Source: Rhizoclosmatium globosum (Eukaryota; Chytridiomycota; Chytridiomycetes; Chytridiales; Chytriomycetaceae). Taken from it: a DNA stretch of 64,000 nt. The notes beneath the pieces are model-generated. The model saw only the letters and a list, made by a program, of their open reading frames with translations, searched no databases and was not told the DNA's origin. The position numbers and the translations under genes were made by a program. The DNA is taken from assembly GCA_002104985.1 (NCBI GenBank), contig MCGO01000130.1:46170-110169 (forward strand), read 5' to 3'. Positions within the stretch are counted from its first letter, which is position 1. Each line of letters opens with the position of its first letter. Of the stretch, positions 8,283 through 64,000 are shown piece by piece.

Positions 8283-8663
8283 TGGCTATGTGTAGAGACA
8301 ACATATCGTTCGAAGTTTTTTTAAGATAATAAATAAATGGCTCCATATCCAAGAAGAAGGCGTCAACTCCTTAAGAATTCAATTTCTTAGTCTCGCACAC
8401 TTGTGTTATACTTTCGATTATTTCAAATGATGGAGAAGTTGTGTGGCTTTTGGGGGCTGTGGACTTGCATCCGCAACTTTTCGGCCATCCAACTCAGTAC
8501 AAGGTTCGCATCCTGACTGATATTGAAGGTTATGGAGATGTGCTGGCGGCTGTCTAGAATTTCTTCATTCTGACCCACGAAAAAACAACTTTCGCGGCTT
8601 TTCCCCTCAAAAACCGCTCTCCTTCTCAACCTGAACCCTAACACCTACGAAAAACAAATCAAG
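8283..8663. other. intergenic upstream of the homeobox array
   Basis: No gene seen. AT-rich, with a purine-poor stretch just before the first homeobox start. Confidence 0.5.
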
Positions 8664-9389
8664 ATGGCGACATCGAATGATGAGGATCTCATGTCGTTTC
8701 TGGATTGTCCGTTCTTTCCCGCCAATCCTGAGACTGAGAAGCAGGGCAGCTTGACACCAACCATCCCATCACCGTCATATCCAGTCTTGTATTCTTTCAA
8801 CAACCCAATTCAAGGGCAGCAGCAACAACCATATCCTTTCACTGCCTTGCCTTTCCCTCTTTTGAGTGTGCGAACATCAGGACAAACGTTTTTAGAAGCC
8901 GAACGGAGCTCTATTCTCCCGCCACCTATTCCTGACTCTGAAAGATTCTCAACGTTGCCACCCGCGCCATGGTCTCAACCCACCACTGCGTCATTATTCC
9001 CGATGTACCAAATACCCAACCCAAACTCAACCTTCCCTTCCAGTCCATCTACGGCAGTATCTTCCGCCTCGATACCATCCACTTCAACAATAATATCAAC
9101 TGTAACAGCAACAAACCGCCACAAAAGTTACGAGTCATCTGAATCAGAATCGCCACAGCTAAACCCAACGTCCCTCACAAACCCCTCCTCGAAACGCGAA
9201 TATAAACGCACGCCTCTTCCACGTGCTGCCAAGAAACGGTTAAAGGAACTGCTGGCAATCGACGCACATCCAGATAAACGGCGGGTATCAGAGATTGCTG
9301 AGGAACTAGGCATGGATACGAGGAAAATTAGGATTTGGTTTCAAAATCAGAGGAGTCAAATGAAAGCGAATGGGGAGATTAGTTCCTGA
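8664..9389 (+). CDS. homeodomain protein 1
   Basis: 241-aa predicted DNA-binding protein. The N-terminal 170 residues are Pro/Ser/Thr/Gln-rich and unstructured. A homeodomain occupies the last 60: helix 1 around KKRLKELL, helix 2 around EIAEELGM, and recognition helix IRIWFQNQRSQMK with the invariant W, F, N and R. The spacing is typical, not the three-residue-extended (TALE) class. Start ATG at 8664 after a purine-rich context. First of four co-directional homeobox genes in under 3 kb; no intron. Likely a nuclear transcription factor; targets unknown. Confidence 0.9.
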   Translation: MATSNDEDLMSFLDCPFFPANPETEKQGSLTPTIPSPSYPVLYSFNNPIQGQQQQPYPFTALPFPLLSVRTSGQTFLEAERSSILPPPIPDSERFSTLPPAPWSQPTTASLFPMYQIPNPNSTFPSSPSTAVSSASIPSTSTIISTVTATNRHKSYESSESESPQLNPTSLTNPSSKREYKRTPLPRAAKKRLKELLAIDAHPDKRRVSEIAEELGMDTRKIRIWFQNQRSQMKANGEISS

Positions 9390-9529
9390 AACGTTTTTGT
9401 TTAATTGAATAGATAATAATATTGTAAATGACGTTGTATGGCGGAGGGTGGCTGAATGCATTATCTGCTTTATCGGACCTTATTTAATTGAAGAGGATTG
9501 GGAGATGGTCTTGCGGTCATGTCTCCACG

Positions 9530-10234
9530 ATGAATCATTCTCCAATCTCTACGCGAATCTCCATCCACCCTTCTTTGCTGTATCTCAACATGCACAGTCT
9601 TCTTTCCATGCTGAACATGTCGCACACTCGATTCGCTGCTCTCCCGAAAGAAGCTCTGCATAGCCAAGTCGACTTGAGTCTTTGGCAACCAAGTCCACTG
9701 GATCAATTCGTGGGCTATCCATCACCTCTTCTCGGATTCGACCTTCAGAAGTATGAGCAATTACCTATACCACAGTTTCAACAACTTCCTCTCCCCGATA
9801 TGGGCTTCACCTTCAACACTGTCGATTCAAGCCCACTCGCACCGCCACCCACCGCTCTATCGCAACCACACACACAAATCCAGAGCCACCACTCTCTCGT
9901 GAATCCGTCTTACTTCTCCAGCTCGCCGCGCTCCCAAAACCAAAACCTACCACAAGCCGACCTTCCAATCATGCCGCATAACACCCAAGATCAAGCCACC
10001 CACCAAACAAGGGCCTCGCCCTCGCCAATCTCCCTCTGCTATTCGAAACATTACAAGCGAGTCCCTACTCCACGCACATGTAAAAAACGCCTTAAGGAAC
10101 TGTTTGCGGACGACATACACCCAAATAAAGAGCGGGTCAAAGAAATCGCGGAAGAGCTCGGTATGGATACACGGAAAGTAAGAGTTTGGTTTCAGAATCA
10201 GAGAGCACAGATGAAATTGAATGAAAGGTCGTGA
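9530..10234 (+). CDS. homeodomain protein 2
   Basis: The open frame begins further up, but the first ATG in frame is 9530, giving 234 aa. Low-complexity Pro/Gln/Ser N-terminus; C-terminal homeodomain with KKRLKELF, EIAEELGMDTRK and VRVWFQNQRAQMK. Very close to the homeodomain of the gene 5' of it, which indicates tandem duplication. By analogy with homeodomain protein 3 there may be an unrecognised short first exon upstream, so the start is uncertain. Confidence 0.87.
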   Translation: MNHSPISTRISIHPSLLYLNMHSLLSMLNMSHTRFAALPKEALHSQVDLSLWQPSPLDQFVGYPSPLLGFDLQKYEQLPIPQFQQLPLPDMGFTFNTVDSSPLAPPPTALSQPHTQIQSHHSLVNPSYFSSSPRSQNQNLPQADLPIMPHNTQDQATHQTRASPSPISLCYSKHYKRVPTPRTCKKRLKELFADDIHPNKERVKEIAEELGMDTRKVRVWFQNQRAQMKLNERS

Positions 10235-13482: not shown

Positions 13483-13510
13483 TTTAGCACTTTTGGAGGC
13501 CTCCCTTAAA
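13483..13510 (+). promoter_or_regulatory. 28-bp module with GGAGGCCTCC palindrome, 74 bp upstream of a surface-protein gene
   Basis: Contains TTTAGCACTTTTGGAGGCCT followed by CCCTTAAA. A weaker relative (CTCCTCCTTAAATTGGG, near 16668) precedes the fourth gene of the same family, so this is probably a promoter element of that family rather than chance. Confidence 0.5.
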
Positions 13511-13583
13511 TTGGGTCAATCAAGCTGGCAATCCCTCCACCTTTAAAATCGGCACTGGCATCCAAAAATCGCTGAAATCAAGA

Positions 13584-14348
13584 ATGCACACCACGATCCT
13601 TGGCATCGCAGCCCTGGCAGCAAGTGTGATCGCGCTCAACTGCGACGTTGCCGATCCAGCCCTGAACTCGAAGTGCCCCACCACTGACATCTGCGTCCAC
13701 CCTCCGCTAGATGCACTTACTATGGTAGATCTTGGCGGCCGCTGTGTCACCAAGCCTTTGGCCTTCCCAGATGCGACAAACAAGTGCATTCTTGACAGCA
13801 CCCCCGACACCGTCTGCAGGGGCTTCCAACTCTGCCTCGGTAACCAAGGTGCCCTTGAGCAGGTCTACAACTGCAACGGTGTCTTCAACAGAGACAAGAC
13901 TGTAGCATTCAAACCTAACCCAATGCCAATTGGTTCCAACTGTGGTGATGGAGTCAGCAGTGACGTGTGTGATTCAAGCATCTGTGCGTGGCCTTACGAT
14001 TCATCCCATGCTACTTGCATCAAGAAACCAACGGTGTTGCCAACGAGTAATACTACCTGCGTTGTGAATGATTTCTGTGGAACTGAGAATCAGGGCACGT
14101 TGTGTCAAAAGTACGAGGAGAGTGGAGCTTTCTTGGAAACGATTTATTATTGTCAGCCAAGACCAACTCTGGTGACTGTGCCTGATGCTCCATCAGCCGT
14201 TTCGTCTGGCGTAGTTACCGCTACGGAGGTGTTGGCAACTGCTGGAAAGACTGTTGCTGCCACAGTTGCTACTACCACGAAGAGTGTCGCTGAAAAGGGG
14301 GTCCTTGGAGGTGTTGTTGTTGTCTTGTCTATTATGTTCGCAGCCTAG
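13584..14348 (+). CDS. cysteine-rich secreted protein, probably GPI-anchored (copy 1, intact)
   Basis: 254 aa: signal peptide (residues 1-17, ending SVIALN), a region of about 180 residues with many cysteines in recurring contexts (SKCPTTDICV, GRCVTKPL, NKCILDSTPD, RGFQLCLG, GSNCGDGVSSDVCD, VVNDFCG), a Thr/Ala linker, then a C-terminal hydrophobic segment with no charged tail, as in GPI-anchored cell-surface proteins. No enzyme motif. Copies 2-4 follow at once, all damaged. Expected on the outer surface, perhaps in adhesion or wall contact; that is inference from architecture only. Confidence 0.82.
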   Translation: MHTTILGIAALAASVIALNCDVADPALNSKCPTTDICVHPPLDALTMVDLGGRCVTKPLAFPDATNKCILDSTPDTVCRGFQLCLGNQGALEQVYNCNGVFNRDKTVAFKPNPMPIGSNCGDGVSSDVCDSSICAWPYDSSHATCIKKPTVLPTSNTTCVVNDFCGTENQGTLCQKYEESGAFLETIYYCQPRPTLVTVPDAPSAVSSGVVTATEVLATAGKTVAATVATTTKSVAEKGVLGGVVVVLSIMFAA

Positions 14349-14636
14349 TGCATAAATAGATGAATCACAAAAGGAACGAAAAGACCGAATGCTGTGAGAG
14401 ATGAAGAACGAATGAAATTGAAAGACTGAGCAATGAAGATGAATAACAGTTAGAAAGAATAAAATGGTTAGGTGACCGTGTTTTAAAATAATTCCTGAAT
14501 CTGTGTAGTTGAAGGAATAAAAGTTACGTTTAAAATTAGAAGGCGTGCTCCAATGGATTTTCTGTCGGCGTTATTTAATCTAACGCGGCAAATACCTCCA
14601 CGCTCCATGCTTTCACCCTTCAAATTGGATGGAAAA

Positions 14637-15397
14637 ATGCAATCCACAATCGTCACCATCGCAGCCCTCGCAGCAAGTGTAGCTGCCTTCAACTGTAACA
14701 TTGTCAGCATCCCCGAATTGAACTCGAAGTGTCCCGACAACGACATATGTGTCAATCATCCCCATGACGCGTTGAACCCCGCTGCTCTTGGCAGTATATG
14801 TGTCACAAAGCCATCAACCTTCCCAAACACGACAAACGATTGCATTCTTGACAGCACACCCGACGCAGTCTGCAGGGGCTTCCCACTCTGTCTTGGTGAT
14901 CAAGGTGCACTTGAGCAACTCTACTACTGCAACGGAACCTTCAACAGAGACAAAGTGCCAGTATTCAAGCCAAATCCAGTTCCGATTGGATCGAATTGTG
15001 GAGACGGAGTTAGCAGCGATTTGTGCGATGTTTCAGGCATCTGTACTTGGGCTTACGCTGCAAGCCGTGCTAATGCATCCAGAAGCCGACCGTGTTGCCA
15101 GCAAATATTACCTGTGTTGTAAACGACTTCTGTGGAGCACAGAATCAGGCCATGTTGTGTCAAAAGCACTTGAATGAGGCGGATGGAGCTTTCCTTGGGA
15201 AGATTTATTTCTGTCAGTTGAGAGGAAGTGCCAATTTCCCTCTGATTGCATCTGCCAGCGCCAGTGCTGTTACTACTGCAACTGGGGTGTTGGCTACGGC
15301 TGGGAAGACTATTCCTGTTACGGCGACGGTTACCAGCAAAGCACAGCACATTCTGCTCCGTGGTATCGTTGCTACCTTCTCTATTTTTGTACTTTAA
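14637..15397 (+). pseudogene. cysteine-rich surface protein copy 2, one frameshift
   Basis: Starts MQSTIVTIAALAASVAAFN at 14637. Near 15073 one base is missing relative to copy 1 (TAATGCATC where TAATTGCATC would keep CIQKPTVLP), after which the frame of 15092-15397 continues to the normal hydrophobic C-terminus. Everything else aligns with copy 1, so restoring one T in a TT run would repair it. May be a sequence error. Confidence 0.75.
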
Positions 15398-15586
15398 AAG
15401 ATGTAATTTGATTGGAAGGAGTAGATTATATGAATAAATTGCGATTTGTGCAAGGCTCTAACACCAATTACAAAGTAATCGTCATAACTGTAGAGCTATA
15501 GATTGAGACAAGAAATAAGAATTACAACCCAAGCCTAATGACCTCCATCAGTTAAATTTGACCCACATTCAAAAAGCCTTTCCCAA

Positions 15587-16312
15587 ATACAATCAACAGT
15601 TACCATCGCTGCCCTCGCAACCAGTGTCACCGCCCTCAGCTGCATTATTTCTACTCCGACTTCAAAGGGTACTTGCCCTGACACTGATATCTGTGTGTAC
15701 CAGCCACAAGTTGCACTTTCCACCAGTCACCATTCGCCGTGCCGAACGCCTCAAATAAATGTGTCTTTTACAACACATTTGATCACGGCTGCAAGGGCTG
15801 CCCACTTTGTCTTGGTGGGCCTCAGCGCCTCAGCAAGTCTACTCGCACGTTCTATAGAGACAAAGTGCCTGGATTCAAGGCGAACTCTGTTCCCGTTGGA
15901 ACCACTTGCGGATTCGGAGTCAGCAGCGACGTGGGTGATGACTTCAGTATCTGTAGTTGGGTGTTTGGCGGAAGTCAGGCGGTGTGCATCAAGAAGCCGC
16001 CCGCCAGTACTGCCAACGAATACTACCTGTGTTTCGAATGATTTCTGTGGACCGGAGATCCGGCCTACGTTGTGTCAACGGAATGATCGGCAGAGAACGT
16101 TCTTGGAAGTTATTTACCACTGTCAAACACAGCCAAGTGCAATGAAACCTTAGTTGCCGACTGCTGCTACGCCTAGTGTGGCTACTACTGTTGTTGAAGC
16201 TGCAAAGACTGTCGCGGCCACTGTTGTTGCCACAACAAAGAGTACCACTAGTGCCGTGGAACACGTTTTGCTTGGTGGTATTATTGTAGCCTTCTCTCTT
16301 CTCGCACTTTAA
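15587..16312 (+). pseudogene. cysteine-rich surface protein copy 3, start lost and frames broken
   Basis: The position of the start codon reads ATA (15587-15589) followed by CAATCAACAGTTACC, as in copy 2, so the start is lost. Homology to copies 1 and 2 runs through at least three frames to the hydrophobic end at 16312. Clear relics: GVSSDVGDD, CIKKPP and VEHVLLGGIIVAF. The most decayed of the four. Confidence 0.8.
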
Positions 16313-42026: not shown

Positions 42027-43300
42027 ATGGGGTGCATTCAGTCAGTCAACGAGCGTCCAGATGCTTCAAAAGTAGTTCCCTTGAACACACTTGTCACTTC
42101 GCAACCATTACAAACAACGCCTCTCTTGCATGAAAACATTCTCTCTGCAATCGGAAACACTCCAATTGGTACAGTGCCACACCCTTTCTCAAGCTTACCT
42201 ACCTTCCCTTACACACTCAACATCGGAAATATCCCGATCCAATCATAATTCACCGTCTCCACCAACCAACTTCCAACCAAATAACTAACTATAAACCCCA
42301 TCAAACTAGTTCGTCTCACGCGCCTTGCTCCACCCGACGTCAAAGTCTATGTCAAGATCGAGTCACTAAACCCAGGAGGTTCCGTCAAAGACCGCATCGT
42401 AACCGCCATGCTCGACGACGCCGAACGTCGCGGAGTCTTGAAACCAGGCATGACCGTCATTGAATCCACAAGTGGAAACACAGGGTATGTACCTCAAAAC
42501 ACCACACCAACCCCCCCTCTCAACACATTCCAATAATTTTTTCTCCCCATCCCAACGACACAAACAGAGTCGCCCTCGCAATGGCATGCGCCTCAAAAGG
42601 GTACCCCTTCGTCGCCGTAATGTCCACCGGAAACTCAATCGAACGCCGCAGAATCATGAAATTCCTCGGCGCCAGAATCGTGCTCACGCCAAAACACCTT
42701 GGCTCGTCGGGGCGTACGCGGTTTGCCGAGAAGCTTGCCGAGAAGCATGGCTGGTGGATCGCGGGGCAGTTTGAGAACCCGGCGAACCCGCAGGCGCATC
42801 GGGATACGACTGGGCCTGAGATTTTGAGGGCTTTTGAGGGGGAGAGGTTGGATTATTTTGTTAGTGGGTTTGGGTCTGGGGGTACGCTTACGGGGGTGTC
42901 GAGTGTTTTGAAGAAGGGGAGGCCAGGGGTGCATGTTATTGCTGCGGAGCCGGAGCATTGTCCGATGTTGAGTCAGGGGAAGGCTGGGCCGCATGATATT
43001 CCTGGATGGACGCCTGATTTTATTCCTCCGATTTTGGATACGACTTGTTATGAGGATGTTATTGGGGTTTCGGATCTTGCGGCCAAGGAGACTTCGAGAG
43101 CGCTTGCGCAGAAGGAGGGAATTTTGTGTGGACCTAGTGCTGGAGCTACTGTGTGGGCTGCGTTGGAGGTTGCAAAGAAGGCGGAGAAGGGTTCAGTCAT
43201 TTTGGCAATGATTCCTGACTCTTGTGAACGATACTTGAGTACGGGTCTTTTCGCAGATATTACTATTGACACGGATATCGAGTACACGGAGGATTTGTAG
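42027..43300 (+). CDS. cysteine synthase A with candidate N-terminal acylation
   Basis: PLP enzyme expected to make cysteine from O-acetylserine and sulfide. Exons 42027-42168, 42310-42484 and 42568-43300 give 349 aa. It opens [15 protein letters not shown], a myristoylation-type signal (Gly2, Ser6) with Cys3 as a palmitoylation candidate, then a 38-residue extension before the catalytic domain ([10 protein letters not shown]). PLP lysine in GSVKDR, TSGNTG for the substrate, and GSGGT for the phosphate, where the usual sequence is GTGGT. The active-site region [12 protein letters not shown] differs from [12 protein letters not shown] in the cluster's other copies. Probably the most diverged copy, and perhaps at a membrane. 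Co-directional with the next four genes. Confidence 0.87.
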
Positions 43301-43466
43301 TTGTCCAGAAAACAAGTTAATAGGATTTCAAGTTATGATTATGGGACCCAAATCTAATAATTATGTCATTCAGTTTTTTCATATCGCTTCTTCATCGACG
43401 CTTCGTGTAGCAGACTAGTTATACATCCCTTTCTTTCTTTTTTTCTTTTCTTGACGAACAACCAAT

Positions 43467-44876
43467 ATGAGTGAAAAGGTGTGTCTGGCTATCCCCAGGA
43501 CCTTCTAAGCTAACGTTACCGAGTCGAAGAATCCAAGAGTATACTTTGAAATGACTGCGGGCGGCAAGCCCATCGGACGTATCACAATGGAGGTTCGTTC
43601 ATCGCCCACACGTTAATTGATCCACGAACAAAGAAACTCACGCTCCACAAACCATACAGCTCCGTGCCGATGTCGTTCCAAAAACTGCGGAAAACTTTCG
43701 CGCGCTTTGCACACACGAGAAGGGTTTTGGGTTCAAGGGATCATCGTTCCACAGAGTGATTCCTGGGTTCATGTGTCAGGGAGGAGACTTTACGAACCAC
43801 AATGGAACTGGTATGTCTGAGATTAGATATTTCGTGCAAATGGTGTTCCTTCGCAACAAAGGAACGGATTAGTGCATATGCCTCCCACCAACATCCAATC
43901 TGCCAAAAACACGCACATCAATTCTAACATTATATTAAACAGGTGGAAAGAGTATCTACGGCGCTAAATTCGCCGACGAGAACTTCCAGTTAAAACACAC
44001 TGGTCCAGGAATCCTCTCCATGGCCAACGCCGGCAAAAACACCAACGGCTCCCAATTCTTCATTTGCACTGAAAAAACTCCACACTTGAACGGAAAACAC
44101 GTTGTCTTTGGAACCGTTGTCGAGGGTATGGCTGTCGTCCGCAAGATCGAGTCCTGGGGATCTTCCTCTGGTGCTACGCGACAGAAGATTGTTATTGCTT
44201 CGTGCGGAGAAATTAAGGAGGAGGTGAAGAAGCGAAAGGCTGAAGAGGAGGAGGAGGTTGAAGGTGATGAGAAGGTTTCGCCAAACAAGAAAGCAAAGGC
44301 TGAGGAAGGTGCTGCTGTACCAGCCAAGAAGAGCGATAAACCACAAGTGTTTTTCGAAATGAGCGCTGGTGGAAAGCCTTTGGGTCGTATTGTGATGGAG
44401 TTGCGTGCAGATGTTGTTCCAAAGACTGCAGAGAACTTCCGTGCGCTTTGTACTCATGAGAAGGGCTTTGGGTTCAAGGGATCGTCGTTCCATCGTGTTA
44501 TTCCTGACTTTATGTGTCAGGGAGGTGACTTCACGAGACATAATGGAACTGGTGGAAAGTCTATTTATGGGGAGAAGTTTAACGACGAGAACTTTAAGCT
44601 TAAGGTAAGGTTTTCGTTATTTGACGTTCATAACCAACTGACAAGCATCTGTAGCACACTGGTCCAGGTATCTTGTCTATGGCCAACGCCGGCAAGAACA
44701 CAAACGGATCTCAATTCTTTATCTGTACAACTAAAACCGACTTTTTGGATGGAAAGCATGTAGTGTTTGGATCTGTGGTCAAGGGAATGGACATTGTTCG
44801 CAAGATTGAAAGCTTTGGATCTGAGAGTGGAAAGACCAAGGTTAAGATTGTTATCACAGATTGCGGTGAAATCTAA
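43467..44876 (+). CDS. double-domain cyclophilin (peptidyl-prolyl isomerase)
   Basis: Exons 43467-43478, 43524-43592, 43660-43810, 43943-44604 and 44655-44876 give 371 aa. Two complete cyclophilin domains: residues about 5-165 and 205-371. Each has [14 protein letters not shown] (catalytic Arg, Phe, Gln), [20 protein letters not shown] and GKHVVFG. The residue that is Trp121 in cyclophilin A (cyclosporin contact) is His in domain 1 (KTPHLNGKH) and Phe in domain 2 (KTDFLDGKH). The linker [15 protein letters not shown] and NKKAKAEE is charged and may be a nuclear signal. Sits between cysteine synthases A and B. The domains are about 80% alike by eye, so the duplication is fairly recent. Confidence 0.92.
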
Positions 44877-44948
44877 ACTCTCATTTATCATAAAAATGAA
44901 GTGGTGAATAATCCATCTCCTCTTGTTTCTTTCCACCAATAACATCCA

Positions 44949-46067
44949 ATGCCACTCTACAACAACGTGCTTGAGCTCGTAGGCAACACGCCAATTGTAA
45001 AGGCAAGTTAAGCCACGATCAGGCAGTTCCTTAAGCTAACACTGCCAAGTAAAGATCAACAAGCTGAATCCCGAAGGTGTCGAAATGTATGTCAAGATCG
45101 AGTCCTCGAATCCGGCTGGTTCCGTCAAAGACCGAATCGCAGTTGGAATGGTCCTCGACGCTGAAACCCGAGGCCTTTTGAAACCAGGCGCTACTTTGAT
45201 TGAATCAACGGCCGGAAACACTGGGTACCTTTCTATCTTCTACTTCTGCACCTGTGCTGCCCTAAACATGCTCATAACAACTAAGTCGTTTGATCTTTTA
45301 GTATCGCACTTGCCATGGTCGCTGCCCAACGTGGTTACAAGTTCATTGCGGTTCTCTCCGAATCAGCTTCCCTCGAACGCATCAAGATCCTCAAATTCCT
45401 CGGTGCAAAGGTTCTCCTGACCCCGAAAACTATGCCTGCTACTGGACGTAACAAAATGGCTGAAGACGTTGCAGCTCAGAACGGTTGGTTTGTGTGCAGA
45501 CAGGCGGATAATCCTGCAAACCCAAGAACGCACTTCAACACAACCGCTGTTGAAATTCAACGGGATTTTGAAGGAAAACAGCTGGATTATTTTGTCTCTG
45601 GGTATGGAACTGGAGGGACAATCAGTGGAACTGCAAATGCGCTGAAACAGGAGAGACCCAACCTTCATGTCGTGATTTGTGAACCTGCAAAAGCACCGAT
45701 TCTCTCAACGGGGAAATGGGAACATCACGGTATTCCTGGATGGACTCCCGATTTCGTTCCTCCCAATTTGGACACAAAAGTGTTTGACCAAATTGTTGGA
45801 GTTTCAGACGAAGAAGCTCATGAAACTTGTCTCGCGTTGGCCAGGAGTGAAGGAATCATGGTTGGTATCTCAGCAGGTGCCACATTTGCGTCTGCATTAA
45901 AGGTTGCCAAGAATGCCCCGAAAGGATCTTGTTTCTTGGTGATGCTCCCTGACTCAGCTGAACGATACATGTCTACCGCATTGTTTGGAAATATCTCTGC
46001 CGAAACGGATAATGTTGAAGGATACCATGAATGGATGCAAGCAAATTACGTTCCAAAGGAAGCATAA
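44949..46067 (+). CDS. cysteine synthase B
   Basis: Exons 44949-45002, 45055-45224 and 45302-46067 give 329 aa. Intron 1 begins GCAAGT (GC-AG), with the join set by [17 protein letters not shown] lysine in GSVKDR. The substrate loop is STAGNTG, not the usual TSGNTG. GTGGT and SAGAT are normal. The segment [13 protein letters not shown] differs from the [10 protein letters not shown] of the copies downstream. Starts 72 bp after the cyclophilin stop. Cytosolic by absence of a leader. Confidence 0.9.
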
Positions 46068-46219
46068 ATAATAAAGACATTCGCATAACCTCTCGCATTG
46101 CAATCCTGACTCTTGCTGACCAACGGTATCATTAGTCTACCTCCCGTGCAGATGTCGCAATCGACCCCTCTCTATCTCCACAAACTCCCACAAACATCCC
46201 AAAAAACTGTCTCCCAAAA

Positions 46220-48519
46220 ATGCCACAGCTCCACGATAACATTCTCTCGCTGGTTGGCAACACACCAATCGTAAAGATCAACCGCCTTGCTCCAGAGGGC
46301 ATTCACTTGTACGTCAAGCTTGAATCCCAGAACCCACTTCAGTCCGTCAAGGACCGTCTTGCCCTCGCAGTTATCGAAGATGCTGAGCGTCGTGGTGTTT
46401 TGAAGCCTGGCCAGACTGTTGTTGAAGCTACGTCTGGAAACACGGGGTTGGTGCTCTTTTCTTGGCGTACCGTGAAACTATGAACTGATCTAATATGTTC
46501 CAGAATTGCTCTTGCCATGGTTTGCGCTGCCAAAGGATATCCATTCGTTGCAGTTATGGTCGAAACATTCAGTGTCGAGCGCAGAAAGAGTAAGTTCAGT
46601 TGTATCTAAAGTGCCACAACTTATCAAATCAAATCAGTCATGAAGTTCCTCGGTGCAAAAGTTGTCTTGACTCCAAAGGAACTGAAAGGAAGTGGAATGG
46701 TCGCTAAAGCCGAACAACTCGCCAAAGAACACGGATGGTTCCAAACAAAGCAGTTCGCAAACCCAGCCAACCCCGAATACCACCGTCAAACAACTGGTCC
46801 TGAAATCGTTTCTGACTTTGTCGGACAGAAGCTCGATTATATTGTTACTGGATGGGGAACGGGTGGTACCCTGACTGGTGTTTCTTCCTTTGTCAAGGTT
46901 GCTCGTCCAGATGTCAAGATTATTGCGGCAGAACCTGCGAAGGCTCCTTTGTTGTCTGGAGGTTCTTTCACTGGTCACTTTATCCAGGGATGGACTCCCG
47001 ACTTTATTCCTGAAGTTTTGAACCGTAACGCTTACGATGAGCTTGTTCCAGTAGCTGACGAGGATGCTATTGCCTCTTCTAAGCTCTTGGCCAAGAAGGA
47101 GGGTATTTTCGTTGGAATCAGGTATGCAACACTAATTTTTAAATCAAAATCGGTTATCCTGAACAAATGACGTCTTTAGTGCTGGAGCTACTTTCGCAGC
47201 AGCCCTCGATGTTGCAAAGCGTGCACCAAAGGGATCCCACATTCTCGTCATGCTGCCAGACACAGCAGAGCGATACCTCTCAACTCCTTTGTTCGCAGAC
47301 ATCAGTGTCGAAAGCGACGTTATTGAGCCTGCTGTTGCCTCAACCACCGAGGTATCTGCACCCTCACCCGAGAAGGTTGTCAAAACTGTCACGACAACTA
47401 AGACGAAAACTGTGACAAAGGTCTCTCCAAACTCGTCTACAACTGTTGTCAACAGCACCGTTAGTACTGCTGTTATCCCAGCTACTCCTCGATTCCCAAT
47501 TCATCAGTCTGTCTTGTCGTTGATTGGACGTACCCCTGTTGTCAAGATTAATCGCCTTGCACCTGAGGGAGTCAATATTTACGTCAAGTTGGAGTCTTTC
47601 AACCCACTGTCGTCTGTGAAGGACCGTCTCGCACTTGCTGTGATTGAAGACGCTGAACGTCGTGGGCTTTTGAAGCCAGGACAGACCGTTGTTGAGGCGA
47701 CTTCCGGAAACACTGGGTACGTCTTTTTAATCACTCAATACTTTAAAATATATTAACTCAAAGTAACCCACCAGAATCGCTCTTGCCATGGTCTGTGCAG
47801 TCAAAGGCTACCCATTTGTTGCCACCATGGTCGAAACCTTCAGTGTCGAGCGAAGAAAGATCATGAAGTTCCTCGGAGCCAAAGTTGTTCTCACCCCTAA
47901 GGAACTCAAGGGAAGTGGAATGGTTGCCAAAGCCGAAGAACTCGCAAAGGAGCACGGTTGGTTCCAGACCAAGCAATTCGCGAACCCAGCCAACCCAGAG
48001 TTCCATCGTCAAACTACTGGTTCTGAGATCTTGAAGGACTTTGCAGGGAAGAGACTTGATTACATTGTTGCTGGGTGGGGTACTGGAGGTACTTTGACTG
48101 GTGTTTCCGCGGCTGTGAAGGCTGCTAGACCTGATGTGAAGGTTGTTGCTGCTGAACCTGCTAAGGCCGCGTTGTTGGCTGGTGGATCATTCACTGGACA
48201 CTTTATTCAAGGATGGGCTCCAGACTTTATTCCAGAGGTGTTGGACCGTAACTCGTATGATTCCTTGGTTTCTGTCAAGGACGAAGATGCGATTGCTACT
48301 TCTAAGCTTTTGGCTCAGAAGGAGGGTGTTTTCGTTGGAATCTCGAGTGGAGCTACTTTTGCTGCGGCTCTGGAGGTTGCCAAGACTGCCGCTCCTGGAT
48401 CCAACATTCTTGTCATGTTGCCAGATACTGCTGAGCGTTACCTTTCCACTCCTCTCTTTGCTGACATTTCCCCAGAGAGTGATGTGATTGAGCCAGCTGC
48501 ACCAACTGCAGAGGAGTAA
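46220..48519 (+). CDS. tandem double cysteine synthase (two full domains in one chain)
   Basis: Exons 46220-46446, 46504-46589, 46638-47121, 47180-47716 and 47775-48519 sum to 2079 nt, 692 aa, with every join in frame. Domain 1 (about 1-325) and domain 2 (about 372-692) each contain the PLP lysine (SVKDR), TSGNTG, GTGGT and S(A/S)GAT. They are joined by a linker of about 45 residues rich in Thr, Val, Ser and Lys ([17 protein letters not shown]). No stop, poly(A) signal or start codon separates the halves: exon 4 runs through domain 1's C-terminus, the linker and domain 2's N-terminus. Cysteine synthases are normally homodimers, so the fusion may act as an intramolecular dimer. Both active sites look competent. 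Confidence 0.9.
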
Positions 48520-48694
48520 AATCCTCAGCTTTCCTTAACTTTGTTGTACAGTTTTATTAGAAAATAAATAGTGAATGCATAGCTAATTACCATGTGTGAT
48601 TTCTGCATGAAGAAGGATTGAGTGTGGTTGGAATCAGACACTGAACAAATGACGCGATTGACGAAATTGATAACCACAACTTTCCTCAAATCAA

Positions 48695-49772
48695 ATGCCA
48701 ATCCACGACAGCGTTCTCTCCGTTGTTGGAGACACACCAGTTGGCAAGTTGATGCATTCACCTTTTAACAGTATGACTGACATTCTCTGATCAGTCAAGA
48801 TCAACCGACTTGCCCCAGAAGGCGTCAACCTTTACGTCAAGCTTGAAGCGCAGAACCCTGGAGGTAACGCACCCTCTGTAACCTTAATCTTTCTTAATCT
48901 TTCTTAATCTAATCTAATCTAATCTAATCTATTAAACCAATAAACCAGGCTCCGTCAAAGACCGACTCGCCCTCGGAGTCATCGAAGACGCCGAGCGCCG
49001 CGGCCTTCTCAAACCAGGCCAAACAGTCATCGAAGCAACCTCGGGAAACACCGGAATCGCACTCGCAATGGTCTGCGCCGCAAAGGGCTACCCCTTCGTT
49101 GCGGTCATGGTCGAAACCTTCTCAATCGAACGCAGGAAAATTATGAAGTTTTACGGCGCGAAAGTCGTTTTGACGCCGAAGGAACTCAAGGGGAGTGGCA
49201 TGGTGGCAAAGGCGGAGCAGCTGGCGATGGAGAACGGGTGGTTCCAGACGAAACAGTTTGCTAACCCCGCGAATCCCGCTTATCACAGACAGACGACTGC
49301 TCCGGAGATTTTGAGGGACTTTGCCGGGAAGAGACTGGATTATATTGTGGCGGGGTGGGGGACTGGAGGCACCATGTCGGGAATTAGTCAGGTGATCCGT
49401 GTGGCTCGTCCAGAGACTAAGATTATTGCGGCTGAGCCTGCCAAGGCTCCTCTTCTTTCTGGTGGTGCTTTCTCGCCACATGGAATTCAGGGTTGGGCTC
49501 CAGACTTTATCCCTGAGGTTCTTGACAGAAACTCCTACGATGAGATTATCCACGTTGACGACCAGGATGCCATCGCTACTTCCAAGTTGCTTGCAAAGTC
49601 TGAGGGTATCTTCACGGGAATCTCCGGGGGTGCTTCCTTCAACGCTGGTTTGAAGTTGGCCAAGACAGCTCCTAAGGGAAGCCACATTCTCGTGATTCTT
49701 GCCGACACCGGAGAGCGCTACTTGAGCACAGCTTTGTTTGCTGATATTAGTCCTGATGCCGATGAAATTTAA
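48695..49772 (+). CDS. cysteine synthase D
   Basis: Exons 48695-48743, 48795-48863 and 48949-49772 give 313 aa. Intron 1 again begins GCAAGT (GC-AG); the join makes [15 protein letters not shown]. Intron 2 holds a TAATC microsatellite. PLP lysine GSVKDR, TSGNTG, GTGGT and SGGAS are intact, and the sequence resembles the domains of the double enzyme ([19 protein letters not shown]). It lacks the intron after GNTG that the others have. Ends 41 bp from the convergent Cache sensor gene. Confidence 0.92.
48883..48931 (+). repeat. TAATC/CTTAATCTTT microsatellite inside a cysteine synthase intron
   Basis: Two CTTAATCTTT units and one more run into four tandem TAATC units. Lies within intron 2 of cysteine synthase D. 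Confidence 0.85.
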
Positions 49773-52706: not shown

Positions 52707-52733
52707 TGGTTTTTGTGCAAAAGAAGTAAATAA

Positions 52734-54916: not shown

Positions 54917-55208
54917 TTACGCGGAGGTTGTTTGATTGATTGATCATGGAGGGTTGGATGTGATGTGTTTGGGAGGTTTTTATTACTTCATGTTGAATGT
55001 ATGGTTGCATTAAATATCATTATTGGTTCACCCTTGCTTTGTGGGAGTGCTATTGGACTCGTTCGTTGCTCTCATGATCTTATCCACGTTCAGACTACAA
55101 TCGGGAGTAGAACTAGCCAAGACTTGAAGACATAGATATGGGGATTTACATAGCGTCGACAAAAAAGAGCCTGGAACTTCAGACCGAGTTGGCCACTGAT
55201 AATCAATA

Positions 55209-58200
55209 ATGGGAGGCGGATGTTCAAAAGGTAAGGCTCTCCCTCGGCTTAAGCTGCGATCCATTAACCACCTTCTTTCGAACCGCCTCTTCTCGGGGAT
55301 CCAGTCTCACCTGCCAGTGTGGTACCCGAGTCACTAGTCAACAAAGGTTTGTCACGAAAACAGAGCCACGTCTCCGCCCCTCTTGTCTCACCAATCACCT
55401 GTTCTTACCTCGCTCTCGTAGCATCGCCGAAAGACCTGGACAAAAACGCGTCGGGGAAGCTTCTTGGATCGCTGCCGGCGTTCTTTGACAACAACAAATT
55501 GATTAATAGACGTGTGGACGTCTTGCCGCTCGAAAATATCCCAACATTGCCGCCGTTGGAGTTGCAGGTTGGATCGGATCTTCGACGGGATATAGAGGAT
55601 GTTGCGGCTGTTGGTGTTGATGGTGTTGCTGACTTGAAGAATGTGAGTTTCTCGATTCATTCGGGTACATGAGTTCAAGCTATTTTCATTTTAAGCAGAC
55701 ACGCAATCAGATTTCAGATGGTATTGATGTGAGTAATCATGTTTGATTCAATGCGTTGTTGATTCCCAATTTAGCAGATCCAGTCAACAGCTCTGCTACA
55801 AATTGACAAGTTTAAAAATGATACAATGAGTACAGTTGTCTCCAGTGTTGACGAAGCCAGTAGAAATGTGCTGCAAAATGGGGAAAGTGCTGTGAAGACT
55901 GTTCAAGAGCTATCGGCTCAACTTGACTCAACTAAATCAGCATTGACAAGTCTTGCAGAAACTGGCTCAACTATAAGAGAGATGATGCAGGATGCGGAAA
56001 CCCTTAACAGCCTCAAGCAAAAGGCTGTGGAGGCAGTACATACCGTTGGGGGGCAGTTGGGTGAAACTCTGAAAACGAAAATATCAGAGAGTGCATTTGG
56101 ATCTGCTGTGTCTGCTGCTGGCCAGTTGGGACTTCTTGTTGGTGATACCTTGAAATCAACAACGGCAATAGCCTCTGAACTCAACACAACTGCAACATCG
56201 ATTATTGCTTCTATTAGTGATCAAGCCAGCACACTACCATTAGATGCTATAATTGGTTTGTTGTATCTTACTGAGAATACTTCATAACACTTAACACCAA
56301 ACAGAAGAAATGCTGCCACCAAAACCCACTCTCAGTAAATGGATTGATGAAAACCACCCATCCACGTTCATAGACTTCAAAGACTCATCTTTCAGAATGG
56401 TTTCCTCACTTTCAGGAAAAGCTGAATCAGAAATGGCAGCATTGTTCTCAAAGCTTGACGATTCGAAAGAAACACTATCAAGTTTCAAAACAGCTTTTGA
56501 TTCTGCAATTGAGACTGGGATTCAGCTTGGGGGTGCAGTTGGAGATGTTGCAAAAGTTGCAAGTGGAGCAGTGTCAAGCATGAAGGATATTGCCGATAAG
56601 CTGGTTCAATCAGTTGACGCAATAGCCAATGTCCATCCCATTGTCAAAGTATCTTGGATGATTGTGTCTGCTGGATATAAGGTATCACTCTATAGAATCT
56701 TTAATGGACACTGACTCTCAAAAAATAAACAGCTTGCAAAAGACGTAAATGAAACAGGGCAAGGATTCAAAGATCTTGCAAAAGACTACGGAGACGTTTT
56801 GCCAAAACTTCAGCTGTATTTAGAGATGGACATAACTGCAATTGAAAATGATATGACTAAATGCACACTCCTTGGAAATAGTGTGAAAGAGTTGTTAGCC
56901 TGTACAAATGAGCTTGTTGTGATCTATTTGAAACACAGCAAGGAAAGCAATTCAGCAAAAGGTAATGACCTGTGCACTGTTGAATTCTATTGACATAAAT
57001 TAGGCCTCAGCTCAAAACTTGGAAAAGCCTGGAACATTGGAACTGACAAGAAGACTCTTGAGGAACTCAAACAACGCTTACAGAGGACCCAGGAAGAGCT
57101 TCAGACACACTTGGCAATGGTGACAGGAGCAGTAATTCTTGAAACAAAATCTGTTGTAGATAGAATGGAAAATAAGCAGGATGCATATCATGACGACATT
57201 GCCAAAAGACTTGAAAGTGTTAAAAATGCCTTGATTGCAAAAAATGTTGTTCCAACAAAAACAGATGATGAGATATTGTAAGTACAGTACATACACATAA
57301 GTAAATTGACACACCAATCAGATTAGAGTTGGTAGCATATTTAAAGCCTGTCAAGTATAATCCTGAAGCGCGTCAGCTTTGTGGCAGAAAGTGGATTACG
57401 TCCAGAGTAGCTAGCTGGTTCCAAGGCACTGATCAAGACAATGGCAATGCAGACAGTGATTCTGACACTGAGGACTCATCTGAGAAAGAGCGGCAAATTT
57501 TTTGGTTGATAGCAAATCCAGGATGTGGGAAGTCAACTATGACAGAAATGATTGTGAAAAGACTTAAGACTGAGGAGCATGCATACTTAGCAGTCTTCTA
57601 TTTTGCACACATGACAAGAAACAGTCCATTTCAGTGTATTCAGTCTATTGCATATCAGGTTAACTCTCTTCATTTGTAGTCCTCTCTTAACCTATTCTAC
57701 TAACAGCTGGCCCTCCAAGATACTGATGTTAGGAGAGCAATGCTTGCTGCTTGTGATAGCAACAAGGAATGGTTTCAGTGTGCAGATTCTGAGCCTGCTT
57801 TATATGAGCTGTTTCATACACTGATTGTAAAGCCTCTGGGATGCAAACCCACAATTATATGTTTAGATGCTCTTGATGAATGTTATTCAGCAACAAGAGC
57901 GGAGTTTGCTGCTATAATTGCAAGTATCCATATTCCCAAAACTATAAGATTTTATGTGACCAGCAGGCCAGGAATCCCCGATCTCCGTAAAAGTCTCAGC
58001 CGCTCAACTCAATTTCAGTTCCATGAAGATGACCCAAAAAATCATGCTGACCTGAAAAAATTTGCACAAATGAGATTTGAGTTCTACGAATGTTTAAAGG
58101 CAAACTCTAAAGTGTCTTCTTGGACTCAGGAGCTGGTGGATAAGTCCAAGGGAAACTTTTTGACCTTAACTCTTGCATTTGCAACACTGGATACTCCAAC

Positions 58201-61200
58201 ATCACCAAAATCATCTCGTGAATTTGAAAAACGGTTTCTTGCGATAGTGAAAAATGACTTGAGCAATGATAGTCTGTATGAACAAGTGCTTGACAAAATT
58301 CTGGATGCACCTCATGATGAAATTGTGAAACATGTCCTCAACTTGCTTGCTATGTTGGTTGCACTCAGAGTTCCAATGACTGTGAAATGTTTGGCGATTC
58401 TGGCAGACTTGGATGATTTTGTTGTTGAGGCTCAACTCTCTTGGATTCTTCCACTATTCAAAAGTCGTGAAGATCCAGTCACAAGTCCAATTGAGTTCAA
58501 ACACAAAACAGTCTATGACTACTTAACTTCTGATAAAAATGCCGTTTACAAGTTCTTGAATATCGCTGCAGCTAATATAGAAGTTGCAAAGAAAGCTGTT
58601 GAAATTTTAACTCAATGCCATGTTGATTGCCCTATCAGGGAATTATATGCAGTGTTCATGGGCTATCATCCCTACCCTTCTTCCGTCAAATGCATTTCTG
58701 AGGATATTCCACTATCTCTTGTTGAATATTCATTCACATGGATCAATCATTTGGAGGGACAATTTGATATCAATGACAATCACTTTCTTGGAGTCTTTAG
58801 AACATTTGTCAGTAGTTATGGAGCAGCTACCCTTGTTACTGCATTTAAAAAGCGAATCAACTGGCTGATTAAGCTAGTTTTATTTTCAGGCAACGGACAA
58901 CAAATATTAATTGATGCGGATGATGCAAAGTGCTTTGAAGATGCCCTTATTTTTGAGGCGGCTGCCTTGGGCCAGACTGACATATGTGATCATCTACTTG
59001 CGTTTGGTAAAGCAGATCCAATGACTAAGGGTTACTGCAATAGAACAACCCTTCATGCTGCTGTTCGATCAGGGATCCTGGATACTGTTAAGGTTTTTTT
59101 GAAGTATCTTGGTTGTGTTGATCCATTTTTTGAATGGAAAGATGAAGATGGCAGAACCCCTTTTGTTTATGCTGAAATGTTTGGAAAGAAAGACATAGTT
59201 TTTCTTCTCAGTGCAGCAAGAAGACGTCAATACTTTGAACCATTCAAATCATCTATTAAAATGGTAAGGGTATCACTGAATATACTACTTTTTTAAACTT
59301 GAATAGGATGGCCTCTTTGTTCGTGCCTGGAACAATCATCTTGACGTTGAAAAAGACTTTGACTTGAAGTCACTAACAAAGGCAAACCATCAAGATGCTG
59401 GCCGAACAATTTTGCACTATTGTTGTGAGCAAGGTCATGTCAAAACTGTAGAGCTTCTTCTTCAGAAAGGAGCAAATATTGAGGAAATTGATGACTTTGA
59501 ATGGACACCCTACATGTTGCAACAGATAATGGTCATGAACAAGTGGTCAACATTCTTCTTCAGCATGGTGCCTTGACTGATTGTAAGACAAACAAATGCT
59601 GGCAACCATTACATTTTGCTGCACGAAATGGATTCACTAGTGTTGCTGAACTACTTTTAGCTCAAGGTGCTCTTGTGGATTCACAAAATGACATGAAACA
59701 AACAGCACTCCATGTAGCAGCACAATATGGTAAAATAGGCATTATAGCTCTACTACTTCAAAAATCAGCTGAAAAAGAAGCCCGTGACAAGACAAATCAG
59801 ACCCCATTGCATTTAGCAACCTGGTATGGCCATAAAGAAGCTGTTGAATTATTGATTCAACATGGTGCATGTGTGTCAGCAAGGAGAAATGAAAACTGGA
59901 CACCACTTCATTATGCAGCACGAAATGGTCACAAGGAAGTTGCAGAAAGTCTTATCCTGGCAGGGGCAAACCTTCATGCAGTGAATGATGACAATAGAAT
60001 GCCCATCCATATTGCAGCAAGTAAAGGAAATACTCATTTAGTTGAGCTATTACTTTCAAAAGGTGCTTCCCAGGATGCTGTTGATGAAAGAAATCAAACA
60101 TTATTACATTTGGCTGCTAACCATGAATGTGTTGACGTTGTCAAGTTGCTTCTTTCCAAAGGTGCTAGAGTTGATGCACTCACATTTTGTGATGACACAC
60201 CATTGCATTTTTCAGCACAAAATGTACGAAGTGATTGTTGTGAGCTTTTGATCAATAGGGGGGCAGATATTCATGCTCTAAATGCAGAATGCTTCACTCC
60301 CCTTCACTTTTCTGCAATTAGTGGAAGCGTTGAAAATGCAGAGCTGCTTTTATCAAAAGGAGCAAGTGTTGATGCAAGGACAAAGGATGATTTTACACCA
60401 CTTCATTTTGCTGCTGATAATGGATGCACAGATATTATTCAAGTCTTACTCAAGCATGGAGCAGATGTGAATGCTGTATCAAAAGATAAAGAAACACCTC
60501 TGCATATGGCTGCCAAATATGGATCTCAGAGTACCTGCCAGTTTTTGCTTACAAATTTAGCCTTGTTGGATGCAGAAACTGTTCTGAGGGAAACACCGCT
60601 TCATTATGCTGCCAAATTTGGATCTATTGATGTGGTTCACTTGTTCATAAAAGCTGGTGCTATTTTAGACTTGCAAGCAATTGATAGATCAACACCACTT
60701 CTAACAGCAATCAAATATGGTTCAACAGAATGTGCAGAAGTCTTGCTCAAAAACAAAGCCAACATTAATGTTGAAAATACAGATCATATGACACCACTTC
60801 ACTTGGCAATGATCAATGAGAGTAAAGCAGATGTTGAGCTGCTTTTGCAATATGGTGCAAACTGTGAAGTCCGAACAAAGGATCAATGGACACCACTTCA
60901 TTGTGCGTGTGTATCAGGCAATTTGGAGATGGTCGATATCTTGCTGAACCATGGAGCTGAGCTTGAAGCTCAAACTGTTGAGGGCTGGACACCATTGATC
61001 TGTAGTTCAATGGCTGGAAACTTGGATGTGTGTGAAATGTTGATTGGAATGGATGCATCAATTGAGGCTACAGACTGTAACAAGCGCAATCTACCCACTG
61101 GGCTGCTGAAAAGGGTTTTATAGATATTCTGGATCTGTTTCTGCAGAGTGGAGCTAATCCAAATAGTCGAACAAATGAGCTTTGGACTCCCTTACATTAT

Positions 61201-62643
61201 AGTGCAATTAATGGATTTCTTGATGTTTGTGAGCTCTTAATTGAGAATTCTGCACATATTGATGCACTTACAATGGATAAATGGTCTGCACTTCACTATG
61301 CTTGTATGAACGGCAACACAGACCTTGTAAATTATCTTCTTTCAAAGGATGCTTCATATGAGCTCTGCACAAATGAAGGTTTGACTGCACTGCATATTGC
61401 AACTTCAAATTTGAGCAATGAAGTAGTGGAAATACTTAGTTGTATTGGAGCAAATCTAAATGCAAAGTCACATCTGGGATGGACGCCACTGCACTTTGCT
61501 GTTGAAACTGGATTTATTGACATTGTTGAATTATTGATAATGCACAAAGCAAAATTGGATGTCATGACAAATGACAATGAAACTTTGTTGCATATTGCTG
61601 CAAAATCAGGATCAGTTAATGTGGCAAATCTATTATTGCAACGTGGAGTTCAATTACATGCTGTCACAACAAATGGAAACTCAGCACTCCACATAGCAGC
61701 CCAAAATTCTAACATTGACTTTGCAAAGCTCTTATTTTCAAGGGAGTTCGAGCCAATATTGTCAATAATGATAATATGACACCTCTTCATTTTGCATCCT
61801 TGCAAGGAAGTGTTGAAATGTTTGAGTTACTTTGCAGTAAAGGAGCTAAACTTCATGCTGTCAACGCTGATGGATGGAATTGTTTGCACTGTTCTGCTAT
61901 GAAAAACAAGGTTGATATAGCTGAAATACTATTGAAAAAGAGAGCAGTAATTGATGCTAAGTCAAAAGAAGCTGAAACTCCTCTTCATATAGCAGCAAAG
62001 AATAATTCAAAAGATGTCGCCCAATTGTTAATTTCAAAGGGTGCCAGTATTTCATCACTTACATATACAATGAAACTCCTCTTCATTTTACATGCCAGTA
62101 TGACTCTGTTGATGTGGCTTTGGCATTATTAAAAAAGGGAGCATCAGAATCTTTTAATCAGAATGGATTTACACACTGCATATAGCTTCTAAATTTGGTG
62201 CCTATAAGACTGCCAAATATTACTTACAAACAACTTCAATCCTTCTGTTCACACTAGGGATACATTGGAAACACCCTTGCATTTTGCAGTGAAGCAAGGA
62301 TCATTGCCTATAGTAAGTCTTTTGTTGGATTCTGGGGCAAATATAGATGCAAGAAGCAAAGACAGAAAAACACCACTTCATTATGCACAACAGTTCTGTA
62401 TTCCTGAAATGAAAGCTCTCTTGTCAAGTCATGGTGCAAGCAACATTGAGATTAGCAATGAGGTAAAATAATAGTGATTACTGTATTATCCTTCTAACAA
62501 TACATAAAAAGAAATCCCCAAATAGTGCTTCTCTTTCTGAAATTGAGACTGAACATTCTTGTGAAGACAATAGAGCAAAGAAAAAAAGTCTAAAGGAGGA
62601 CTTACAGGACTATTTGCACTTCTTCAATTCAAAAAGCTGCTAA
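55209..62643 (+). CDS. NACHT-ankyrin NLR-like protein with acylation-type N-terminus
   Basis: Exons: 55209-55230, 55305-55642, 55696-55728, 55775-56255, 56305-56681, 56733-56961, 57004-57277, 57322-57658, 57707-59263 and 59307-62462, then one from 62512. All joins up to 59307 are in frame. Residues 1-7 are MGGGCSK (Gly2 and Ser6 for myristoylation, Cys5 for palmitoylation). Residues about 110-590 are helical. NACHT-type ATPase: P-loop NPGCGKST (about 650), Walker B TIICLDALDEC (about 750), arginine sensor TSRPGIPDLR. A helical spacer precedes about 30 ankyrin repeats (TPLHxAAxxGHxEVVELLL). Frames break at 59508, 61094, 61742, about 62070 and 62173, usually one base in a run. Over 2,200 aa. 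Codon use is A/T-rich. Confidence 0.87.
59364..62440 (+). repeat. ankyrin repeat array, about 30 units of 33 residues
   Basis: 99-bp-period repeats, each TPLHxAAxxG then (V/I)xLLLxxGA. Copies are diverged at the DNA level. At least five single-base frame changes fall inside, four of which are missing bases in C or G runs where the repeat consensus shows what was lost. Confidence 0.9.
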
Positions 62644-63963
62644 AAAGTCACGAAAATACAGCACATTTTCCTCTGAGACTAAATATATGATGTTGACACC
62701 ATGAGTTCAGAAAGGAGTGACCAACTTCAATCACTCAAAAAGCAGTTCAGATAATCTTGGAAGGCTTAAGTCTATTAAGTTTGATTCTAGTGCAAGGAAG
62801 TCTGAACACCGTGCATCTGTAGCATCAACAGTGAAGTTTTCAAGACTGAAAAATAGACCTTCTATTGTTAGCACTATTGGTGGACGCTCATATGTAGACA
62901 GACGCTCATCTGTCAACTCAAAAATCTATAAGTCATACAATTCTTTGAGCTAAGCATGTATGGTGGTCGCTCTATTTATACATTACAAAATGAGCCATCA
63001 TTATCAAAGTTTTCTATCAATGATAATACAAGGCTATCATTTTTATCTATTGGCACTGTCAACAAAGTTCAGGCAACAGATTCAGATCATAATTCTCAGT
63101 TATCTCTTGAAGAATCCAAACCCACGTCAATTGCAAAATATAGTTTACATACTAACCCTGCATCAAAGTCTTCAATAGGTTGGGATAGAAGTAGAAGCAA
63201 GATGAATTTGTTGGCAAATCCTTCTTCCACAACATCTGTTAAATTTAACTTGAGGAACAACCAATCATCACTTTCAAGCATTCAATCAAAAGGGAAACTG
63301 AATCTACATAATAATCCTGCATCAATGTCATCTGTTAGATTCAATTTACAACATAATCCATCCTCTGCTGCAACATTGGATGTTCCTCGAGCAAACAGAT
63401 TAGTATCTTCAGGTGACTTTCCACACAAGCTTTCACAACACGACTTTGATATTGGAACAAGGCTTGAAGATTCTGTGATGGACTTGGTGAGACCATTTTT
63501 GGTTAAAATTTTGCTAATCTTGATAGAATTCACTGAAGGGATCTCTTTTATGACTTCAAGAGATGATCTTACAAGTTGTGTTTCTCCCAACTGTGAACAA
63601 AATAGCACAGCCAATAACCACAAAACACACTCTGAATCTGAAGAAAACTGTTCTAAATTATGTAGACAACAAGGTAGTTACATTTACATGTACTGAAACT
63701 GAACCATGATAGCCTTTACTTCAAATGAAACTGTTGAAAGAAACAAAGTCAGCTTTGAAGATGATCTTAGCAATGTAGTTTTGAGTAATGCTGAGGAGAA
63801 CAAAATCCGACTGTCTTCTGAACATCTTACTGATGAAAACATGAAAGTTTTGATTCCAGATACCTCTATTGAGCATATGAAAGTAGCAACTCTCAACGTT
63901 GCCTTGAAGAAACAGACAAAAGCAATTCTAACACAAAAATATTGGATTGCAGCCTTAAATTAG
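62644..63963 (+). CDS. Ser/Asn-rich tail of the NACHT-ankyrin gene, frames broken
   Basis: Downstream frames (62717-62953, 62956-63696, 63706-63963) are rich in Ser, Asn, Lys and Arg, have the same A/T-rich codon use and follow one another with little gap, so they are best read as the continuing tail. The window ends here, so the true end is not visible. A stop at 62643 or at 63963 could instead be real. Confidence 0.45.
63139..63384 (+). repeat. short protein repeat in the tail: N-L-x-x-N-P-x-S-x-x-S-V-x-F
   Basis: Five consecutive copies: YSLHTNPASKSSIG, MNLLANPSSTTSVKF, NLRNNQSSLSSIQ, NLHNNPASMSSVRF and NLQHNPSSAATLDV. A weaker copy, YTLQNEPSLSKFSI, is at 62977. Spacing is 14-18 residues. 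Confidence 0.8.
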
Positions 63964-64000
63964 AAGCAATTTTTGATTCAGAGAAATATCTGCACCATTG

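Follow-up and report, generated by a model that had tools for sequence, protein, structure and literature searches.

The window analysed here, a stretch of 64,000 nucleotides from the chytrid Rhizoclosmatium globosum, is the final 64 kb of the 110,169-base contig C36, in a genome of 56.9 Mb and 420 contigs. A spliced gene on the + strand, encoding a protein similar to fungal NOD-like receptors (NLRs) with a predicted lipid-anchored N-terminus, occupies its right edge, and the contig end falls inside this gene. Ten exons, from 55209 to 59263, are joined by nine GT-AG introns (42-75 nt) into 3,567 nt without a stop codon, and the same ten exons give a stop-free N-terminal half (N-half) of 1,189 amino acids in all three copies of the gene (window, C47 and C416). 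Judged from the sequence, the gene structure is real. The features of the window copy are as follows.

55209..55230, + strand: exon 1 (22 nt), encoding MGGGCSK and the first base of codon 8, identical in all three copies; by its sequence pattern, a predicted signal for N-myristoylation (Gly2) and S-acylation (Cys5)
55231..55304, + strand: intron 1 (74 nt), GTAAGG...CAG
55305..55346, + strand: exon 2 (42 nt), linker; the frame is kept if it is skipped
55422..55642, + strand: exon 3; apart from exon 1, the frame has no Met codon before exon 5
55699..55728, + strand: exon 4 (30 nt); an alternative acceptor 3 nt earlier is possible
55778..56255, + strand: exon 5, long helical rod (splice reading; single-sequence model of the open frame)
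56305..56681, + strand: exon 6, second helical domain, with the motif HPIVKVSW common to the paralogs and to C2-type basidiomycete NLRs
56733..56961, + strand: exon 7, second helical domain continued (splice reading)
57004..57277, + strand: exon 8, helical linker (helix judged by eye)
57322..57658, + strand: exon 9, start of the NACHT-type ATPase, with Walker A NPGCGKST (NPHP3_N match)
57707..59263, + strand: exon 10, remainder of the ATPase (LDALDEC, TSRPG), the region following it and the first ankyrin repeats (NPHP3_N match)
59307..62462, + strand: exon 11, ankyrin array, with six one-base gaps when compared with C47, whose copy is open (1,054 amino acids)
62512..64000, + strand: start of the serine-rich tail; the frame is broken in the window copy and the gene continues past the contig end

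Exon 1, proposed in a preliminary description made from the sequence alone, is present and is followed by a GTAAGG donor, and the spliced reading is free of stops in all three copies. The single early intron given there becomes two, since a second one, intron 2 (55347-55421, 75 nt), is likely. Because exon 2 can be skipped in frame and intron 2 sits within a frame open from 55268 to 55672, the sequence beyond position 7 is less secure than the start itself. Nor does the gene end at 63963, as had been stated: the contig ends inside it, and breaks interrupt the frame of the window copy both within the ankyrin exon and in the tail. In the C47 copy, which has four further exons beyond the ankyrin exon (inferred by eye), the reading is 3,392 amino acids long, and its stop codon lies about 2.1 kb past the point where the window copy ends.

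The ATPase was identified as NPHP3_N (PF24883), which we take to be a relative of NACHT, at residues 611-757 with 94.9 bits (cut-off 24.8); the NACHT ATPase of the preliminary description is confirmed in this form. The NB-ARC profile gave 15.6 bits on the N-half, under its cut-off of 23.5, and an NB-ARC identity of the type found in the plant receptor RPS5 was rejected. The open ankyrin exon of C47 contains 31 PF00023 stretches, with matches in the pieces of the window copy as well, and is preceded by an Ank_2 match (residues 1086-1172), in agreement with the roughly thirty repeats first counted. The tail, 1,149 amino acids in the C47 reading, is serine-rich and carries a loose L-x-x-N-P-[AS]-S-x-x-S repeat. 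Neither TPR nor LRR matches are listed among the profile results for the gene; no C2 match was found in the 1,189-aa N-half by profile search, and Pfam Goodbye (PF17109) and NACHT_N (PF17100) gave no match over cut-off in the gene. By these profile matches, the architecture is that of a NACHT-type STAND (signal transduction ATPase with numerous domains) protein, NLR-like in its layout. The long helical region ahead of the ATPase was also recovered: the model of the frame around exon 5 (55775-56284) consists only of helices, about 100 and 48 residues long (single sequence, pLDDT 71.3, pTM 0.36). Across residues 96-550, the mean helical moment was above that of all 200 shuffles, the best single window being equalled by 10 of the 200. 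Matches to the rod in the same genome are limited to the three copies of this gene.

The start MGGGCS conforms to the M-G-x-x-x-S/T rule for myristoylation, with a cysteine adjacent (PMC11467418). Cys5 is a candidate S-acylation site, and the genome contains a gene for N-myristoyltransferase (NMT, 199.4 bits). A degenerate DNA pattern of the start has three matches in the 56.9 Mb, all in the copies of this gene, and the reversed control has none. The gene product is accordingly scored, on its sequence pattern, as predicted to be N-myristoylated on Gly2 and S-acylated on Cys5.

The reading to which we give somewhat better than even weight is a membrane-anchored NACHT-type STAND switch of the fungal NLR-like kind with a dual acyl start. 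Gly2 would be myristoylated by the cell's N-myristoyltransferase and Cys5 S-acylated, so that the protein would sit on a membrane from the start, with the lipid end followed by the long helical rod, the helical signalling domain, the ATPase switch and the ankyrin sensor array. Once a ligand or a modified self-protein bound to the ankyrin repeats, the ATPase would be freed for nucleotide exchange and oligomerisation, and the latter would bring the helical domains together at the membrane. We infer both lipid attachments, the membrane address, oligomerisation and an immune-type role for this protein.

A serious alternative concerns the address. Nephrocystin-3 (NPHP3), to which PF24883 is assigned by family name, combines an N-myristoylated start, a helical stretch, the PF24883 ATPase and C-terminal repeats, and N-myristoylation and a coiled coil bring it to cilia via UNC119B and ARL3 (PMC6678300). 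The present protein, with its predicted lipid, helical stretch, ATPase and repeats, is similar in layout. It could therefore be cargo of the same kind, with UNC119 binding the myristoylated start and ARL3 releasing it in the flagellum, and would then act at the membrane or base of the zoospore flagellum and not as an immune receptor of the plasma membrane. The genome contains an UNC119-type piece (63.9 bits, versus 33.3 for PDE6-delta), a PDE6-delta-type piece (79.1 versus 35.9) and radial-spoke matches (best 140.6 bits); because of these genes the fungus is probably flagellate. In addition, BBSome mutants of Chlamydomonas accumulate in their cilia two proteins for which dual acylation is predicted (PMC6678300). 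However, NPHP3 is a ciliary protein with TPR repeats, while the repeats here are ankyrin, and the NPHP3_N family is broad, with 66 matches in this genome, so that orthology to NPHP3 is not shown and is unsupported for this gene. Furthermore, the helical domain adjoining the ATPase is that of fungal NLRs, and the nearby cysteine would favour stable trapping at a membrane. Flagellar targeting is a live rival to plasma-membrane anchoring, although as an account of the protein we consider it rather unlikely. A combination of the two is more doubtful still: a first lipid-anchored fungal NLR, in which the tiny first exon would have made a soluble NLR dually acylated on a helical tether, in place of the C2 module of its basidiomycete relatives, and which UNC119 would carry to the flagellar membrane of the zoospore to act as a sensor.

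The 66 NPHP3_N matches, which include haplotype copies and split exons and need not all be NLRs, are far above the published counts for chytrids. No NLRs were detected in chytrids by PMC4986451, and PMC12258605 gives as few as one NLR per species for Chytridiomycota; against these reports, dozens of matches are notable in a flagellated fungus. One NLR gene of the genome, L006, carries a TIR domain before the NPHP3_N ATPase (TIR_2 35 bits, cut-off 28), and L002 and the chytrid database hit P0003 resemble this layout by eye.

The acyl start depends on the choice of exon 1, and if that start were unused, or spliced with loss of the motif, translation would begin elsewhere and the product would be an ordinary soluble fungal NLR. 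All ATG codons from 54917 to 55424 were combined with all donors and acceptors entering the exon-3 frame, which gave 84 start/splice models. Other ATGs can thus be spliced into frame, but with weaker donors: among the best 25 of the 84, only the donor at 55231, that of exon 1, matches 5 of 6 consensus bases, and the MGGGCSK acyl-type start is to this extent supported. Six models use this donor, four of them starting with MGGGCSK and two at an internal ATG (MFK) in poorer context; the ATG of exon 1 is flanked by A at -3 and G at +4, with GTAAGG following after 22 nt. No in-frame Met occurs in exons 2 to 4. An upstream reading frame of 23 codons (55138-55209), whose TAA overlaps the start codon of the gene (TAATG), speaks for a start elsewhere; it is open in all three copies and could also serve control by reinitiation.

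Further evidence on this point comes from the paralogs. The second helical domain of the C63 paralog, used as a query, matched 11 contigs of the same genome at E<=0.1, namely C63, C57, C260, C397, C381, C108, C248, C268 and those of the three copies of this gene; C63, C57 and C260 are near-identical, and C397, C381 and C108 closely similar. The upstream side of the eight paralog loci, which may represent six genes, was inspected by eye in the genomic sequence, and six of them show a tiny phase-1 first exon at the same place. In five it is ATGTTGGGAG followed by GTGAGG, and in C63 it is ATGGTGAAAG followed by GTGAGC, each a 10-nt first exon of the same phase. That first intron is seemingly missing from C57 and C260; in C63, a start that needs no splicing is also possible farther along. 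These tiny exons support the exon-1 model, and an unused exon-1 start is, in our estimate, improbable.

Over the gene's first 2.6 kb the three copies share about 97% identity. The window and C416 can be aligned over 16 kb, of which about 7.3 kb lies upstream of the gene, and C47 aligns with the window only from position 52,727 on, with no alignment upstream of it. They are probably haplotypes of one locus; three near-identical versions of the region (C36, C47 and C416) suggest either that the assembly was left unmerged and holds more than two haplotypes or that the region was recently duplicated. Within the ankyrin exon, frame-breaking gaps number six in the window copy (all one-base), six in C416 and none in C47; they are private to each copy, and five of the six window gaps lie within homopolymers. 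Additional gaps occur in the tail, where C47 also deviates from the other copies in places. Since the window gaps fall mostly in homopolymers, are unshared and lie in a copy whose contig ends 1.5 kb away, they look like uncorrected sequencing error. The ratio of nonsynonymous to synonymous substitution rates (dN/dS) between copies is 0.12-0.15 for the N-half and 0.05-0.11 for exons 9-10, which indicates purifying selection on the whole protein, less clearly on its N-terminal part. A pseudogene, with genuine frame breaks in the window and C416 copies and no protein produced, is very improbable and was rejected, as the breaks are private to each copy, the C47 exon is open and purifying selection acts across the copies.

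In the paralogs, the helical domain starts near the start of the protein, and their loci appear to begin with MLG (five), MLT (two) or MVK (one). Since none of the eight appears to have an MG start, and since so little precedes their helical domain, this gene stands alone in having the acyl start and the rod, and on the sequences compared a gain of the acyl start here would be simpler than repeated loss. The C63 paralog gave 16.3 bits with NACHT_N, under the cut-off of 30.

Database searches scored only candidates sharing most short words and lying within a length range, so that absence from them is no proof of absence. With the N-half as query, 7,992 candidates were scored, of which only two distant proteins reached E<=0.001; none of 7,983 did so with residues 1-620 of the longer reading from C47. 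For the ATPase half, 27 relatives were found among 7,993 candidates, the best from the chytrid Quaeritorhiza haematococci. A profile of the second helical domain (window, C63 and C108) matched, among the 29 proteins, only P0001 from Botryobasidium (E 3e-11) and P0022 from Leucogyrophana (E 1.4e-4) at E<=0.001. Each of the two has a C2 domain close to its N-terminus (29.4 and 41.1 bits, respectively), and none was seen, by eye only, in the first 330 residues of eight other relatives; the link of the second helical domain with C2 is suggestive.

C2 domains commonly bind membranes. The two basidiomycete proteins share with this gene the homologous second helical domain before the NPHP3_N ATPase and a further module ahead of it; their module is C2, whereas here it is the predicted double acyl start with the rod, and their repeats are TPR (P0001) or WD40 (P0022), whereas here they are ankyrin. 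Judging by domain order, the acyl start may occupy the position that the C2 module has in them. P0001 matches neither the Goodbye nor the NACHT_N Pfam profile, and it is from its place that we infer the second helical domain to be the published Goodbye-like domain. The C2 Goodbye-like double-domain architecture is described as specific to Agaricomycetes (PMC9815663). Fungal NACHT-ankyrin NLRs (PMC4986451, PMC12258605) have the same tripartite layout with an NPHP3_N/NACHT ATPase and an ankyrin array, and this gene differs from them in the acyl start, the long helical rod and the very long tail.

Several results weigh against a membrane-anchored switch with a dual acyl start. The anchor is a motif of seven residues that depends on one splice choice, and the contrast between exons and introns at the start of the gene is weak: variable columns number 4 of 315 in the first four exons and 10 of 254 in their introns (p 0.055), with pairwise p values among copies of 0.025, 1.0 and 0.040. 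Constraint on exons 1-5 is less even than elsewhere, with dN/dS of 0.37, 0.27 and 0.12 in three comparisons with few changes, and the copies compared are close to being alleles of one another. The protein-database searches yielded no orthologue from another species. The PROSITE myristoylation pattern fits none of the 29 database relatives at their annotated starts, which may be wrong. Homologs sharing the MGxxxS start were accordingly not found, either among these relatives or, as already noted, among the eight paralog loci as read by eye. The helical domain has no Pfam match over cut-off, and the NPHP3_N profile is broad, with matches in 9 of 14 prokaryotic control genomes, in 5 of them over cut-off.

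RPS5 and PML5, acylated coiled-coil NLRs (CNLs) of plants, carry NB-ARC and LRR. The resemblance to RPS5 put forward in the preliminary description therefore holds for the anchor alone, as the ATPase is of another family than NB-ARC and ankyrin repeats stand where the plant receptors have LRR. Like this protein, the plant receptors have Gly2 and a nearby Cys at an NLR N-terminus, and mutants of their acyl residues no longer induce cell death (PMC11467418). Their N-terminal domain is unrelated to that of this gene, and the likeness would be convergence. The claim that an acyl start is undescribed on such a protein was too strong, given the N-myristoylated NPHP3 (PMC6678300). In open-licence literature, which leaves out most subscription journals, nothing was found joining fungal NLRs or NACHT with myristoylation, and the words 'myristoyl' and 'palmitoyl' are absent from the main text of the fungal NLR papers searched. 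Plant receptors and a human cilium protein do have related anchors, but none was found reported for a fungal NLR.

Elsewhere in the window, other genes were noticed by eye. Positions 42464-49772 contain several tandem genes with the look of cysteine-synthase-type enzymes, and positions 8574-10234 two adjoining genes with homeobox-like C-termini. Three adjacent, mutually related and probably secreted cysteine-rich proteins are encoded at 13488-16153; the first of them has no Pfam match at E<=0.1.

If the product is indeed a switch held at the membrane by its acyl start, constitutive membrane anchoring of NLR-like switches would have arisen separately in plants and fungi. For one and the same helical domain, C2 would then provide the route to the membrane in mushrooms and fatty acids in this fungus, and a link would exist between the ciliary and the immune-type roles of a single ATPase family.

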